Assembly: GCA_913055745.1 (NCBI GenBank)
Contig: CAJXJZ010000010.1
Location: 1-49,290, forward strand
Source: an uncultured bacterium
Lineage (GTDB): Bacteria; Hydrothermota; Hydrothermia; UBA1063; CAJXJZ01
Reading direction: 5' to 3'
Length of the DNA stretch: 49,290 nucleotides
Shown here: piece after piece, positions 19,949 through 30,916 of the stretch
Numbering within the stretch: position 1 is the stretch's first letter
How the letters are laid out: each line of letters starts with the position of its first letter
Notes under the pieces: generated by a model
What the model saw: only the letters and a program-made list of their open reading frames with translations
What the model was told of the DNA's origin: nothing
The model's database searches: none
Position numbers and translations under genes: made by a program

Positions 19949-21139
19949 ATGGGATGGAAGATAGGGGAAGTATTGCCTGCCATTAAGCAAAATGTGGTTG
20001 ATTTAATAAGTGAAGATGAACTTATTGATAAACTTAGGCGGAAAGATGAAATAGTAGTCAAGTATGGTGCAGATCCCTCGCGCCCTGATCTGCATCTCGG
20101 CCATTATGTTTGTTTAAAGAAACTTAGGGACCTTCAGGATATTGGATTTAAGATTATTTTTATAGTTGGTGATTTCACAGCAATGATTGGTGATCCAACA
20201 GGCAGGTCAAAAACAAGGCCAAGACTTACAGAGGAAGAAATTAAGGAAAACGCCAAGACCTATTTCCAGCAGGTTTTCAAGGTTCTTGATGGAGAAAAGA
20301 CTATTGTTAGATACAATTCAGAATGGCTCTCTAAACTTACAGCAAAGGATATTATTGAGATTGCCTCTACCTACACAGTTGCCCGGATGTTAGAGAGGGA
20401 TGATTTCGCAAAAAGATACAGAGATAACATCCCCATATCTATTCATGAGTTTTTATATCCTCTTTTTCAGGGATATGACTCTTATGCCACAGGTGCTGAT
20501 ATTGAGGTGGGTGGAACTGATCAAGTATTTAATTTCCTCGTTGCGAGGGACATACAGAAACACTTTGGACAGGAATCTCAGGTGATACTCACTGTGCCAT
20601 TATTAGAAGGGACTGATGGTAGGCTCAAAATGTCCAAGTCCTACGATAATTACATTGGCCTTACAGAAGATCCAGAGAATATTTATGGAAAGGTAATGTC
20701 TATTCCTGACACGCTTATAAAAAAATATTATAAACTCGTTCTTTATTATACAGAGGATGAACTTTTAAAGGTTGAAGAATATATCAAGAAAGACCCAAGA
20801 GGTGCTAAGGCAAAACTCGCCTATGAGATCGTAAAATTGCTTTATTCTGATAAAGAGGCAAAAGAAGCAGAGGAGCATTTTAATAGGGTATTTCGTGAGA
20901 AAAAGATACCGGAAAACATACCAGAATTTTCCATACCAGCTGAAGGTAAGAATATAATAGAGATAATCTTTGAGTCAGGGCTTGTAAACTCAAAGAGTGA
21001 AGCAAGGAGGCTTATTACACAAAAGGCTGTGAGGGTTAATGGTGAGGTTGTAACCAATATAGAGGCGGTATTAAAACCAGATAATGAAAAGATAATAAAG
21101 GTTGGTAAAAGGAAGTTTTTAAAAATAGTGCATAAGTGA
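19949..21139 (+). CDS. tyrS: tyrosine--tRNA ligase (TyrZ-type)
   Basis: A 396-residue class I synthetase charging tRNA-Tyr. The HIGH motif is HLGH (49-52) and the KMSKS motif is an exact KMSKS (227-231), as in the TyrZ-like subgroup (TyrS proper usually has KFGKS/T). The tyrosine pocket contains PLFQGYDSYATGADIEVGGTDQ, and an S4 RNA-binding domain ends the protein (SEARRLITQKAVRVNGEVV). The last four bases overlap the ribD GTG. Confidence 0.96.
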   Translation: MGWKIGEVLPAIKQNVVDLISEDELIDKLRRKDEIVVKYGADPSRPDLHLGHYVCLKKLRDLQDIGFKIIFIVGDFTAMIGDPTGRSKTRPRLTEEEIKENAKTYFQQVFKVLDGEKTIVRYNSEWLSKLTAKDIIEIASTYTVARMLERDDFAKRYRDNIPISIHEFLYPLFQGYDSYATGADIEVGGTDQVFNFLVARDIQKHFGQESQVILTVPLLEGTDGRLKMSKSYDNYIGLTEDPENIYGKVMSIPDTLIKKYYKLVLYYTEDELLKVEEYIKKDPRGAKAKLAYEIVKLLYSDKEAKEAEEHFNRVFREKKIPENIPEFSIPAEGKNIIEIIFESGLVNSKSEARRLITQKAVRVNGEVVTNIEAVLKPDNEKIIKVGKRKFLKIVHK

Positions 21140-22212
21140 GAATGAAGACTGATAAAGATTACATGGCTTATGCCTTAAAACTTGCAGAACTTGGTTATGG
21201 GTTTACATGGCCCAATCCAGCAGTAGGTGCTGTAATTGTAAAAGATGGGCGGATAGTTGGAGTAGGGTATCATAGAAAGAAGGGAGAGGCACATGCCGAG
21301 GTTATGGCTATAAAGGATGCAAGAGGCCTTACAAATGGTGCTACTATGTATGTCAATTTAGAGCCACATTCCTTTTATGGACTTGTTCCTCCATGCACTG
21401 ATGCCATTATTAAAGCAGGTATAAAAAAAGTAGTTATAGGTATGCTTGACCCCAATCCGAAGGTAATGGGCAATGGAGTGAGGATCTTAAGGGAACACGG
21501 TGTTGAAGTGGTAGTAGGTGTCCTTGAGGAAGAAGCGAAGTTTTTAAATAGGTTCTTCTATAAGTTTCATAAAAAGAAGAGGCCCTATGTTATGTTAAAG
21601 TTTGCTGTGAGTATGGATGGATTTATCGCCGATCGAAATGGAAATTCCAAATGGATAAGTAATGAAAAATCACGCAGATATGTCCATAAGATGCGAGGTG
21701 AGGTGGATGCAGTGATGGTGGGGAGGAATACCCTTGTAAAAGATAATGCACGATTGACACCACGAGATGTCTTTTATGCTAAAATGCCTGTGAGGATAGT
21801 AGTGGGTAGAAATTTTAAAAAAGATGTGTTCCAACTGGATTTTTTTAAAGAAAAGGGCGAAAAGTGGATTTTAACCACGCAGGATGCCATTATACCCAGA
21901 CCACCAGATAATGTAAATATCATAAGATGTGGTAAAGAAAGAGTGGATTTTAATTGCTTGTTGAATTACATGAAGGAACGAGAGATGCTTTCTTTATTGG
22001 TAGAAGGAGGTTCTATGCTTGCAAGTTCCATGATGGAACAGGGCCTAATAGACGAGATTATTCTGTTCAAGGCTCCGAAGATTTTTGGTAATGGACTTGG
22101 GATGTTTAATCTTCAAATTGATAAGCATTTAATTGATTTTTATCTATATGATGTAAAGAGAATTGATAATGATATGATGCTTCGGTATATAAAGAATGGA
22201 ACACTTGATTAA
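21136..22212 (+). CDS. ribD: RibD-like bifunctional pyrimidine deaminase/reductase with an altered deaminase zinc motif
   Basis: A 358-residue protein with the full RibD order: deaminase (WPNPAVGAVIVKDGRIVG, HAEV with H53 and E55) and reductase (RPYVMLKFAVSMDGFIAD, GEVDAVMVGRNTLVKDNARLTPRD, LLVEGGSMLASS). These are two successive riboflavin pathway steps. The usual zinc/substrate motif EPCSHxGRTPPC reads EPHSFYGLVPPC: the first zinc cysteine is His78, the next His is Phe, and Arg-Thr are Leu-Val; C87 is kept. Deaminase activity is therefore uncertain. No other rib genes are near. GTG at 21136 overlaps tyrS; ATG at 21142 is an alternative. Confidence 0.85.
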   Translation: MRMKTDKDYMAYALKLAELGYGFTWPNPAVGAVIVKDGRIVGVGYHRKKGEAHAEVMAIKDARGLTNGATMYVNLEPHSFYGLVPPCTDAIIKAGIKKVVIGMLDPNPKVMGNGVRILREHGVEVVVGVLEEEAKFLNRFFYKFHKKKRPYVMLKFAVSMDGFIADRNGNSKWISNEKSRRYVHKMRGEVDAVMVGRNTLVKDNARLTPRDVFYAKMPVRIVVGRNFKKDVFQLDFFKEKGEKWILTTQDAIIPRPPDNVNIIRCGKERVDFNCLLNYMKEREMLSLLVEGGSMLASSMMEQGLIDEIILFKAPKIFGNGLGMFNLQIDKHLIDFYLYDVKRIDNDMMLRYIKNGTLD

Positions 22213-22738
22213 AAGTATACAGTCTATTGGACTTCCTGCGGAGGTCCAAATCCCTATAATTGCAGCACTTCCTATTCTTGAACTTAGAGGTGCTATTCCT
22301 TATGGAGTTTTAGTACTTAAGATGAGTCCAATTAAAACACTTATACTTTCCCTTGTCGGTAATCTCATTGTCATAATACCATTGCTTTTTATAATTGATA
22401 GGCTGCGGGATAAGATTGAGAAGATTGAGATAGGCAAAAAGATGTTAGAAAGGGCCAAAAGTAAAGGAAGGCTCGTAGAGAAATTTGAACTTTTGGGACT
22501 GTTCCTATTTGTTGCCATACCGCTCCCTGGGACGGGGGCATGGACAGGTGCCTTGTTGGCAATAATCTTTGGCATAAGGAAGCATCTTGCCATACCAGCC
22601 ATTTCATTTGGTGTTATCATAGCGGGCCTTATAGTAACTTTTATTGTTTCTCTTGGCACTGTAAAGGGCATACTGCTTGGGGTATTATTCCTTGTAGGAG
22701 TTTCAAAGATGCTTGATTATATGATGGAGAAAAAATGA
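22196..22738 (+). CDS. small multidrug-export family membrane protein (COG2426-type)
   Basis: A 180-residue hydrophobic protein with about four to five membrane helices and the family marks ALPILELRGAIPYGV near the N-terminus, a charged cytoplasmic stretch (KIEIGKKMLERAKSKGRLVEKF) and IPLPGTGAWTGALLA. The export function attributed to this family is poorly documented, so the transported substrate is unknown. It overlaps ribD by 17 bases and the HDAC-like gene by four. Confidence 0.8.
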   Translation: MEHLIKSIQSIGLPAEVQIPIIAALPILELRGAIPYGVLVLKMSPIKTLILSLVGNLIVIIPLLFIIDRLRDKIEKIEIGKKMLERAKSKGRLVEKFELLGLFLFVAIPLPGTGAWTGALLAIIFGIRKHLAIPAISFGVIIAGLIVTFIVSLGTVKGILLGVLFLVGVSKMLDYMMEKK

Positions 22739-23745
22739 GGGTATTTTATCCTGCATTCGAATCGTCGTACATACCCCCCTTCAGGATACAGGGGAAACTT
22801 TTAAATACATTTTTAGAAACGCCAAAAAGGCTTAAAGAGGTTCTAATATATATGGAGAAGTATCCCAATAAGTTTGATATCATAAAAGTGGCATCAATGG
22901 GTATAGACAATATTGGTAAGGTTCACTCTCCCAAGTTAATTTCTTTTTATTCTCAAATACAGAGGGTATTGAGTAAAAAAGAATATATTGAGCCTATAAC
23001 ATTCCCTATCCGAAAAGGCCAAAGGCCACAAAATATCAAATTTCAGGCAGGATACTATTGTTTTGATTCAAGAACTGTTATTAAAAGGGATACATTAAAG
23101 GCAGCACTAAATGCGGGTGCAGCAACGATGAAGGCAGCCCTGGAACTAATAAAAAGTAAGGATTTATATACCCTTGCCCTTGTTCGCCCGCCAGGTCATC
23201 ACGCAGGCAGAGATTTCTATGGAGGGTTTTCGTTTGTTAATAATGCTGCAATTGGTGCTGCTGTTTTAGAAAAACTTGGAAGGGTAGGGATACTTGACCT
23301 TGACTATTTTCATGGTAATGGAACACAAAATATTTTTTACCAGAGTTCTCGTGTCTTTACTGTTTCTATTCATCGCACACCCGAGGTGGAATTCCCTTAT
23401 CTTTGGGGATATGCAAGTGAAAAGGGGAGGGGGAGTGGAGAAGGATGGAATCTCAACATCCCACTTGAGGGCAAAGTAAGCGGTTCAACATACTTGAAGT
23501 TGGTAGAGAAGGTGTTATCTCTTTTTAAGAAGCGTCAGGTCAAAGCCCTGGTTGTTTCTCTTGGTACGAATATACACAAGGATGACCTTTTGGGTGATTT
23601 CTATCTTGATACAGATGATTTTAAAAAGATTGGTAATTTAATAGGCAATATGGGCTTAAAGGTCCTCACTGTGCTTGAGGGTGGTTATCAGCCTAAGGTA
23701 CTTAAAGAATCATTACTTGCATATCTGGAGGGACTTTATGCATAA
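22735..23745 (+). CDS. HDAC/acetoin-utilization family protein with degenerate zinc site
   Basis: A 336-residue arginase/deacetylase-fold protein. The tandem active-site histidines are kept (RPPGHHAG, H155-H156), as are LDLDYFHGNGTQ and the C-terminal LEGGY. Of the three zinc ligands, D190 is present, but the His of DxH is F192 and the Asp of the GxDxH-type motif is N279 (SLGTNIHKDD). Family enzymes deacetylate lysines or polyamines with this zinc, so catalysis by the normal route is doubtful. The codons read cleanly with no frameshift. The ATGA overlap couples it to the upstream membrane protein. Confidence 0.82.
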   Translation: MRVFYPAFESSYIPPFRIQGKLLNTFLETPKRLKEVLIYMEKYPNKFDIIKVASMGIDNIGKVHSPKLISFYSQIQRVLSKKEYIEPITFPIRKGQRPQNIKFQAGYYCFDSRTVIKRDTLKAALNAGAATMKAALELIKSKDLYTLALVRPPGHHAGRDFYGGFSFVNNAAIGAAVLEKLGRVGILDLDYFHGNGTQNIFYQSSRVFTVSIHRTPEVEFPYLWGYASEKGRGSGEGWNLNIPLEGKVSGSTYLKLVEKVLSLFKKRQVKALVVSLGTNIHKDDLLGDFYLDTDDFKKIGNLIGNMGLKVLTVLEGGYQPKVLKESLLAYLEGLYA

Positions 23746-24001
23746 AATTATTAAAATAGGTATCACTTATATACGTTTTTCTGCCTTTCTTGTTCTTTTT
23801 GTGCTTTTCCTTTATATACTTGTTGCTTTGGCAAACATGATTGGTGCCACTTTCTATTCTTTTTGGGGTATAATCTCCTATATATTGTTACAGATTATTC
23901 TGCCCATATATGCAGGTCTTTTGCTCTTCTTTATTTTGTACATCCTTGCTGAGTCGTTTGGAAAAATTTTTATAAAGAAAGATAAAGAAGAAAATGCATA
24001 A
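23738..24001 (+). CDS. small two-helix membrane protein, unknown function
   Basis: An 87-residue protein with hydrophobic segments at about residues 10-35 and 40-70 and a charged tail (KIFIKKDKEENA). It was started at 23738 because GGAGGG sits just upstream; a longer frame within the HDAC gene is less likely. It overlaps the HDAC gene by 8 bases and the convergent kinase-like gene by 32. I do not recognise the family. Confidence 0.6.
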   Translation: MHKIIKIGITYIRFSAFLVLFVLFLYILVALANMIGATFYSFWGIISYILLQIILPIYAGLLLFFILYILAESFGKIFIKKDKEENA

Positions 24002-28570: not shown

Positions 28571-30916
28571 ATGAAGGCATTGTTTAGGTATGTTGTAGTA
28601 GGTGTTATTTCTATTGGATTTGTCATTGCGGCAAGTCCATCATCAGAGCCTGGAAATGATATGGATCATGCCTTTGAGATTGTGCCCAACAAAACCTATA
28701 CAGAGCATCTTGATTCTGTTGATGTCCATGATTTTTACAAGTTTAAGGTGGCATATAGCGAATCAATTACTCTTACGATGACCCCAACATCGGGTAATGA
28801 TTTTGACCTTGCACTTTATGATTGTAATGGTATTGGAATTTCCAATAGTACACATCCTGCAGGTCAAAGGGATATTGTAACTGGTATTGTGAAGGATTCC
28901 TCCTGTGAGTACTGGTATGCTGATGTATTTAGACATAGTGGTGAAGGAAACTATTACTTGTATCTTGAAAAAGATACTATAAAACCCGAATGGACCTTGA
29001 TGGTATATTTGAATGGAGATAATAATCTTGAGTCCTTTGCTTATCAAGATTTCAATGAAATGGAGGCTGCAAATCCATCCCCCTATGTTAATGTGGTCGT
29101 TCAGTTTGATACAAAGAGTGGAGGAACCTACAGGTATTTAATTAGGGGTGATAATGATCCTAATAGAATTAATTCGCCAGTGGTTGATAATCCGGGTGAA
29201 CAAAATATGGGAGATGGAAATACGCTTGTGAATTTTGTGCGCTGGGCAGTGAATAAGTATCCTGCCAAGAAATATGGCCTTATACTATGGGACCATGGTT
29301 CAGGATGGCATAAGGGGAAAACCCAACCTACCTCGCCGCTTAAGGGTGTATCACAGGATGAGTCAAGCGGCGGTGATTTTATTGGTGTATCTAATGGAGA
29401 GTTGAAGAGTGCACTCTCTTCTATAAAAAGTATAGTGGGAGGGAAACTTGATTTTCTTGGATTTGATGCCTGTCTTATGGGTATGTGGGAGGTTCTTGAT
29501 GTTATAAAGGATTATGCTAAATTTACTACAGTATCAGAGCAAACAGAAGGTGGGCAGGGTTGGTATTACACGGGATTTGCCAATGTCCTCCCTTCATGGG
29601 ATGGTGCAGGACTTGCTTCTCAGATAGTTAATTCACAACAAGGACTGGCAACCCTGGCTGCAATTGACCTTTCAAAGATAGAGAGACTCACACAGACAGT
29701 AAATGATTTTGCAGAGGCTCTTATTAATCAAAGACCCGCCTTGTCTTCGGCAATAGATGATGCAAGGGCGCATTTTTATCATGATGGTGCTTCCGGGCAT
29801 GATCATGAATATGGATGGGAGTCAAGTTATAACAATCGTGAAGATATAGATCTCTTTAGATTCGCTTATTATATCAATAATGATAGCCGATTCCCAGAAA
29901 GTGTTCGAAAACTTGCACAGGATGTAATGTCTGCTGTAGGTGGTGCAGTAATCAATCTTAGTACTGCCAGTGACTATAGAGATGACTCTCATGGAATTTC
30001 CATTTATTATCCCAGCGACCCAAGAAACTATAATCACTCTATCTTTGGTGGGAACTACGATAACCTTCCTGTGGCAAGAAAGACCAAATGGGACGAGTTT
30101 ATAAAGGGTGAAGAAGGTGGAGCAAACTATGATTATACGCTTACCACAACAGCATATAACTGGATAGATACAAGAAATGCCACTGGTATAACAGGTGATG
30201 ACCAGTCTAAGGCCTTCTCTCTTCCGTTTACGTTCAAGTTCTACGGCGTCGATTATAATTCTGTATATGTATCCAGTAATGGATTTTTAAGTTTCACTTC
30301 CAACAATTCTGGTTATAATCCTCAGAGGATACCTGATAATGCTGCACCCAACGCAGTAATTGCACCACTTTGGAGAGACCTTGACCCTTCCAAAGCAGGG
30401 CATATAACCTATTATTCAGGAAGTGATAAGTTTGTGATTACCTGGGAAGGTGTGAAGAATTACAGAACAGATAATAGGCAGACATTTCAGGTAATCCTTT
30501 ATCCAAACGGGGAGATAGTGTTCCAGTATAAAGATGTTACCAATGATGTCACAACAACAATCGGGCTGGAAGATCAGAATGGTAACAAGGGAAAGAATGC
30601 AGGCGCGCCACGTAATGGTACTGCATATAGGTGGATTCCAACAACGAAGAATATTCTTACCAGTACTTCTTCAAAAGTTTTCGTTAAAAGGGTTTACTAT
30701 CTAAATGGTGAACTAAATCTTGAGTTCTCAAGCATGCCATCTTCAGAAGTTAATATTTCTGTTTACAATGTTCTTGGTAGGAAGGTATCACAAAAAGTAA
30801 TAAAAGCTATGCCTCACATTGCCTGGCGAGTTGGCACTCTTCCGCGTGGTGTATATCTTGTTACATTAAAGGTAGATAATACATTATACACGCGCAAGTT
30901 CTATGTGATAAGGTAA
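28571..30916 (+). CDS. secreted clostripain-family (C11) cysteine protease with PPC-like and sorting domains
   Basis: A 781-residue exported protein. After the signal peptide (about 22 residues), a pre-peptidase C-terminal-type domain (DMDHAFEIVPN, DFYKFKVA, DFDLALYD; ~25-135) precedes the clostripain domain (~137-510): EWTLMVYLNGDNNLE, H242 in LWDHGSGWH and C301 in FDACLMGM form the expected His/Cys dyad. Then a beta-rich module (LPFTFKFYGVDYNSVYVSSN ... PLWRDLDPSKAGHITYYSG; ~540-690) and a Por-type sorting domain (NISVYNVLGRKV ... RGVYLVTLKV). It likely digests extracellular proteins with Arg/Lys preference, inferred from family. Own strong promoter and own terminator. Confidence 0.9.
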   Translation: MKALFRYVVVGVISIGFVIAASPSSEPGNDMDHAFEIVPNKTYTEHLDSVDVHDFYKFKVAYSESITLTMTPTSGNDFDLALYDCNGIGISNSTHPAGQRDIVTGIVKDSSCEYWYADVFRHSGEGNYYLYLEKDTIKPEWTLMVYLNGDNNLESFAYQDFNEMEAANPSPYVNVVVQFDTKSGGTYRYLIRGDNDPNRINSPVVDNPGEQNMGDGNTLVNFVRWAVNKYPAKKYGLILWDHGSGWHKGKTQPTSPLKGVSQDESSGGDFIGVSNGELKSALSSIKSIVGGKLDFLGFDACLMGMWEVLDVIKDYAKFTTVSEQTEGGQGWYYTGFANVLPSWDGAGLASQIVNSQQGLATLAAIDLSKIERLTQTVNDFAEALINQRPALSSAIDDARAHFYHDGASGHDHEYGWESSYNNREDIDLFRFAYYINNDSRFPESVRKLAQDVMSAVGGAVINLSTASDYRDDSHGISIYYPSDPRNYNHSIFGGNYDNLPVARKTKWDEFIKGEEGGANYDYTLTTTAYNWIDTRNATGITGDDQSKAFSLPFTFKFYGVDYNSVYVSSNGFLSFTSNNSGYNPQRIPDNAAPNAVIAPLWRDLDPSKAGHITYYSGSDKFVITWEGVKNYRTDNRQTFQVILYPNGEIVFQYKDVTNDVTTTIGLEDQNGNKGKNAGAPRNGTAYRWIPTTKNILTSTSSKVFVKRVYYLNGELNLEFSSMPSSEVNISVYNVLGRKVSQKVIKAMPHIAWRVGTLPRGVYLVTLKVDNTLYTRKFYVIR

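Follow-up and report, generated by a model that had tools for sequence, protein, structure and literature searches.

A putative zinc-less relative of acetylpolyamine amidohydrolases conserved in an uncultured bacterial genus

The gene at positions 22735-23745 of the window (the 49,290-nucleotide stretch analyzed here, contig CAJXJZ010000010.1 from an uncultured bacterium of the Hydrothermota) encodes a relative of acetylpolyamine amidohydrolases (APAHs) in which two of the three zinc ligands are replaced, a ligand His by Phe192 and a ligand Asp by Asn279. Sequence comparisons make it most likely that the gene, far from being broken, has been retained, and that its product is a family descendant without enzymatic activity or with altered chemistry. 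The preferred reading, to which we assign a probability of roughly 0.7, is that of an APAH-derived pseudoenzyme maintained for a binding or regulatory role.

Family, active-site residues and gene neighborhood

The original prediction, made from the DNA sequence, had placed the product in the HDAC family. The family stands, PF00850 being the sole Pfam match (E 1.9e-59; 201.9 bits against a cut-off of 27.9; none of the NCBIfam models matched), but the assignment can be narrowed to the APAH branch. The closest solved proteins are APAHs (9gkz, E 3.9e-55; 3q9b, E 6.9e-50), and every one of the top 16 PDB fold matches of an AlphaFold2 model (metal-free, from 12 sequences; pLDDT 89.0, pTM 0.91) is an APAH chain. 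The nearest known system is that of the APAHs of Pseudomonas sp. (PsApaH, 9gkz), Mycoplana ramosa (MrAPAH, 3q9b) and Marinobacter (6phr), cluster 4 of Graf et al. (2024; PMC11532494). Cluster 4 is further marked by acetylpolyamine hydrolysis and a head-to-head dimer. The protein shares with cluster 4 whole-length homology, the deacetylase fold, the L2-loop region, the RPPGHH and EGGY motifs and Asp190. It differs in its zinc site, where the Asp-His-Asp ligands of the cluster are represented by Asp190, Phe192 and Asn279, in having Ser for Cys at 166, and in its net positive charge and basic residues (Lys/Arg102, Arg113) where cluster 4 has a negative, polyamine-binding mouth.

Residues were mapped by alignment to MrAPAH. 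Its ligands D195, H197 and D284 align with D190, F192 and N279, its tandem H158-H159 with H155-H156 and its Y323 with Y318. The alignment and the codons (GAC TAT TTT CAT at 23302-23313; AAT at 23569-23571) bear out the residues and numbering first given for the D190-Y-F192 pair and N279, as well as the claim that the tandem catalytic His and the GGY motif are kept. The features are the following, all on the + strand:

22735..23745, +, putative zinc-less APAH-like protein (PF00850), 336 aa, from ORF, Pfam, PDB homology and AlphaFold2 fold
23302..23304, +, Asp190, the sole kept zinc ligand (MrAPAH D195)
23308..23310, +, Phe192 (TTT), replacing the ligand His (MrAPAH H197)
23569..23571, +, Asn279 (AAT), replacing the ligand Asp (MrAPAH D284)
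23197..23202, +, His155-His156, the catalytic pair, kept
23680..23688, +, Gly-Gly-Tyr318, kept in the genus; the Tyr is absent from the Anaerolineae Phe/Asn proteins
23230..23232, +, Ser166, where Cys stands in 71 of 72 zinc-competent relatives
23038..23040, +, Lys102 (Lys/Arg across the genus), aligned with the polyamine-binding Glu106 of MrAPAH
23071..23073, +, Arg113 (4/4 species), aligned with MrAPAH Glu117
23374..23379, +, Arg214-Thr215, mostly Ala-Asp in the family
22196..22738, +, upstream coupled gene, PF06695 (putative small multi-drug export protein)
21136..22212, +, ribD-like gene (PF00383 and PF01872), upstream in the same overlapping run
23738..24001, +, small hydrophobic ORF, 87 aa, downstream and overlapping, conserved in the genus

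The predicted translational coupling to the neighbors also holds: the start ATG overlaps the stop of the upstream PF06695 gene (ATGA, 22735-22738) and the stop codon overlaps the ATG of the downstream ORF by 8 bases (23738-23745). At loci L002 and L003 the neighborhood is collinear, and there too the gene overlaps PF06695 upstream by four bases. No Pfam model matched the small hydrophobic ORF (scanned from 23735), no shared partner gene was found in the contexts of L005 and L008, and none of the window's neighbors was found beside the order-mate's copy, except for distant matches to sugar-transport genes. Since the gene is flanked by the PF06695 membrane-protein gene and the hydrophobic ORF, its context makes an association with a membrane complex possible. 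Elsewhere in the window (28571-30916), a secreted-looking protein carries, from reading, a candidate motif resembling C11 (clostripain-like) peptidases.

Distribution and origins of the Phe/Asn pair

Phe192 and Asn279 are present in all four genomes of the genus (the window's genome, G001, G002 and G003), an agreement that excludes sequencing error at both codons, the artifact against which the original prediction had cautioned. In an alignment of 84 proteins, of which 82 are APAH-like and two are class II outgroups, positions 192/279/318 read His/Asp/Tyr in 73, both outgroups among them, Phe/Asn/Tyr in the four genus proteins only, and His/Asn/Tyr in four. Phe/Asn/Gly, Phe/Asn/Thr and His/Asp/Ser are represented by one protein each. 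Setting aside the Phe/Asn and His/Asn groups, every one of the 72 APAH-like relatives has His at the position equivalent to 192 and Asp at that equivalent to 279, so the pair in the genus is not a chance occurrence. Homologues sharing both residues, for which a search had been proposed, were found in the three genus mates and in two Anaerolineae proteins, L046 and L096. In the 72 zinc-competent relatives, 44 positions reach at least 95% conservation, and each genus protein matches at 38-40 of them; C166S, H192F and D279N are the substitutions that all four share at conserved positions, and a fourth shared difference lies at residue 44, in an alignment column gapped in the majority of relatives.

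Variations of other kinds were seen among the relatives. The His/Asn proteins L097 and L099 also share the Cys to Ser change at 166 with the window's genus, while L047 and L023 (His/Asn) keep Cys. Ten Chloroflexota-class APAH-like proteins (L061, L062, L064, L071, L072, L074, L075, L079, L081 and L082) have Ala, Gly or Cys for the His that follows the ligand His (DYHAGNG and similar) and keep their zinc ligands. In L111, zinc ligands are present and the GGY Tyr is Ser. Three deacetylase-like proteins from Dehalococcoidia (L013, L014, L015) have SFGDHH for RPPGHH and HHADGT for HHGNGT.

In a maximum-likelihood tree computed after removal of the trait columns, in which long branches are present, the genus proteins form one clade (support 100/100) with an order-mate protein bearing normal ligands, L020, as sister (95/84). 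L046 and L096 form a separate clade beside L047. A single origin of the pair was rejected: a tree constrained to unite the six Phe proteins is worse by 72.8 log-likelihood units (AU p 2.8e-5). As judged from this tree, Phe and Asn together arose twice, independently, in the genus and in the Anaerolineae, another phylum. Four changes are counted at 279 (Asp to Asn) and two at 192 (His to Phe); both Phe lineages are nested inside Asn lineages, Phe occurring only on an Asn background. The Anaerolineae branching suggests that Asp to Asn came first, followed by His to Phe together with loss of the Tyr. Only there does the tree give an order, since in the window's genus both ligand changes fall on one branch.

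Among the best 30 or so matches listed from 147 genomes of the window's phylum, none outside the genus has Phe. A DNA search for D-x-F-H-G-N-G-T, a pattern that demands exact HGNGT so that other sequence contexts may escape, picked out G150 alone when 400 genomes from its phylum were scanned; 399 genomes of the phylum of G152 gave four hits, all in frames unrelated to deacetylases. No viral contigs with relatives were found, and plasmid-borne relatives were less than 60% identical.

It is conceivable, if unlikely, that the protein is still an enzyme of changed chemistry, with the His pair and Tyr318 acting metal-free or with Asp190/Asn279 and a neighbor holding another metal weakly. His155, His156, Asp188, Asp190 and Tyr318 do not vary among the four genus proteins. 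A pure binder would have no need of the His pair, Asp190 or Tyr318, so the protein may retain some residual chemistry or have an altered one. The genus-shared substitutions lie in the active site, the His/Asn intermediate with its Tyr kept survives in three lineages, and Asn can serve as a metal ligand in other enzymes. However, Phe cannot bind metal, which leaves one ordinary ligand, and the Anaerolineae Phe/Asn proteins lack the Tyr as well, as expected if catalysis was lost.

Net charge and polyamine binding

The genus proteins have net charges of +15, +11, +7 and +3, whereas the 72 relatives average -13.3 (SD 3.5, maximum 0); the Anaerolineae Phe/Asn proteins are at -10 and -12. As a control for genome-wide drift, the window's genome was compared with that of the order-mate G049 over 156 reciprocal-best pairs: the charge shift per 100 aa averaged 0.97 (SD 2.17), and the APAH-like protein, at +7.8, ranked third. 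Proteins of the window's genome are often basic (median pI 8.8); those of the order-mate are similar (8.5), yet its APAH orthologue is acidic. At single positions, all four species have Lys or Arg at 102 and Arg at 113, aligned with Glu106 and Glu117 of MrAPAH, and A to R at 214 and D to T at 215 are fixed in the genus. Glu106 of MrAPAH contacts the polyamine, and a negative active site favors polycations (Graf et al., PMC11532494). Polyamine binding by the genus protein thus appears disfavored. The proposal that acyl-lysine or polyamine may be bound without hydrolysis is supported in part: a non-hydrolytic role is likely with two ligands lost, but the case for polyamine is weakened by the reversed charge and the residues at 102 and 113.

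The same charge reversal makes it quite improbable that the protein is a zinc-less binder, sensor or sink for (acetyl)polyamines, a variant of the preferred reading with another ligand, even though its APAH ancestry would fit and two aminopropyltransferase-like PF01564 genes make polyamines plausible in the genus. Such a role may yet apply to the acidic Anaerolineae proteins, though G150 gave no PF01564 match. In G000 the two PF01564 genes adjoin each other (C45 7409-9286), and they are likewise paired in G001, G003 and G049.

Selection, proposed function and related systems

The genus mates are 65-76% identical to the APAH-like protein. Between species, Nei-Gojobori dN is 0.17-0.25 with dS at 2.55 in one pair and saturated in the others; YN00 dN/dS was saturated in nearly all comparisons. 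The neighboring ribD and PF06695 genes have dN in a similar range. Taken together, these values place the gene under strong purifying selection, and the open ORF, its intact counterparts across the four species and the low dN beside high or saturated dS uphold the original view that the frame is intact and not a decayed pseudogene. Neutral decay of a dispensable gene is most improbable: catalytic ligands are typically lost first in a redundant enzyme, but here, besides the intact frames and low dN, all six Phe/Asn proteins retain 34 of the positions at which the relatives reach 95% conservation or more.

As a conserved, selected homologue without essential catalytic residues, the APAH-like protein has the properties of a pseudoenzyme, and it is probably zinc-free and non-hydrolytic. 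The Asp to Asn change would remove charge at the metal site and His to Phe would fill the space with an aromatic side chain, so that the core could stay packed without metal; with no zinc, no water would be activated and the ancestral amide hydrolysis would stop. The protein would then owe its retention to some partner bound by its pocket or surface. A zinc-competent family member is unlikely to pair with it, as its gene is the single PF00850 match in the window's genome; the Anaerolineae genomes with Phe/Asn proteins have a second family member. In the genus, the partner would probably not be a polyamine, since the protein and its pocket-mouth positions have turned basic. If the protein is indeed zinc-free and non-hydrolytic, an anionic partner may be entertained, though we hold it to be somewhat doubtful; an anionic metabolite, a nucleic acid or a membrane surface would be a guess. 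Likewise tentative is the full scenario in which the same two substitutions, probably Asp to Asn and then His to Phe, have on at least two occasions turned bacterial APAH-like proteins into zinc-free proteins of new function, with a switch from polycation to anion binding in the genus.

Inactive relatives with this fold have precedents. The C-terminal pseudo-deacetylase domain of human HDAC10 is reported to be catalytically inactive (PMC11532494); there a second domain is fused to an active one, whereas the present protein is encoded by a stand-alone gene and its active site is mostly intact. Class IIa HDACs have weak activity and are proposed scaffolds (PMC11532494); these lose the Tyr, whereas the APAH-like protein keeps it and loses zinc ligands. 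A survey of bacterial deacylases stresses the conservation of catalytic residues in its representatives (PMC11532494). Within the searchable literature (subscription papers lay outside its scope), no paper on zinc-less bacterial deacetylases was on point. The pseudoenzyme kind is known; the branch, its parallel origin and the charge switch were not found there.

Because the zinc triad is missing, annotation of the APAH-like protein as a histone or polyamine deacetylase is unwarranted. Genomes receive such labels by fold alone, which would misname a conserved zinc-less branch. The loss in parallel in two phyla, apparently in order and with His/Asn intermediates still extant, would provide a natural series leading from metalloenzyme to pseudoenzyme.
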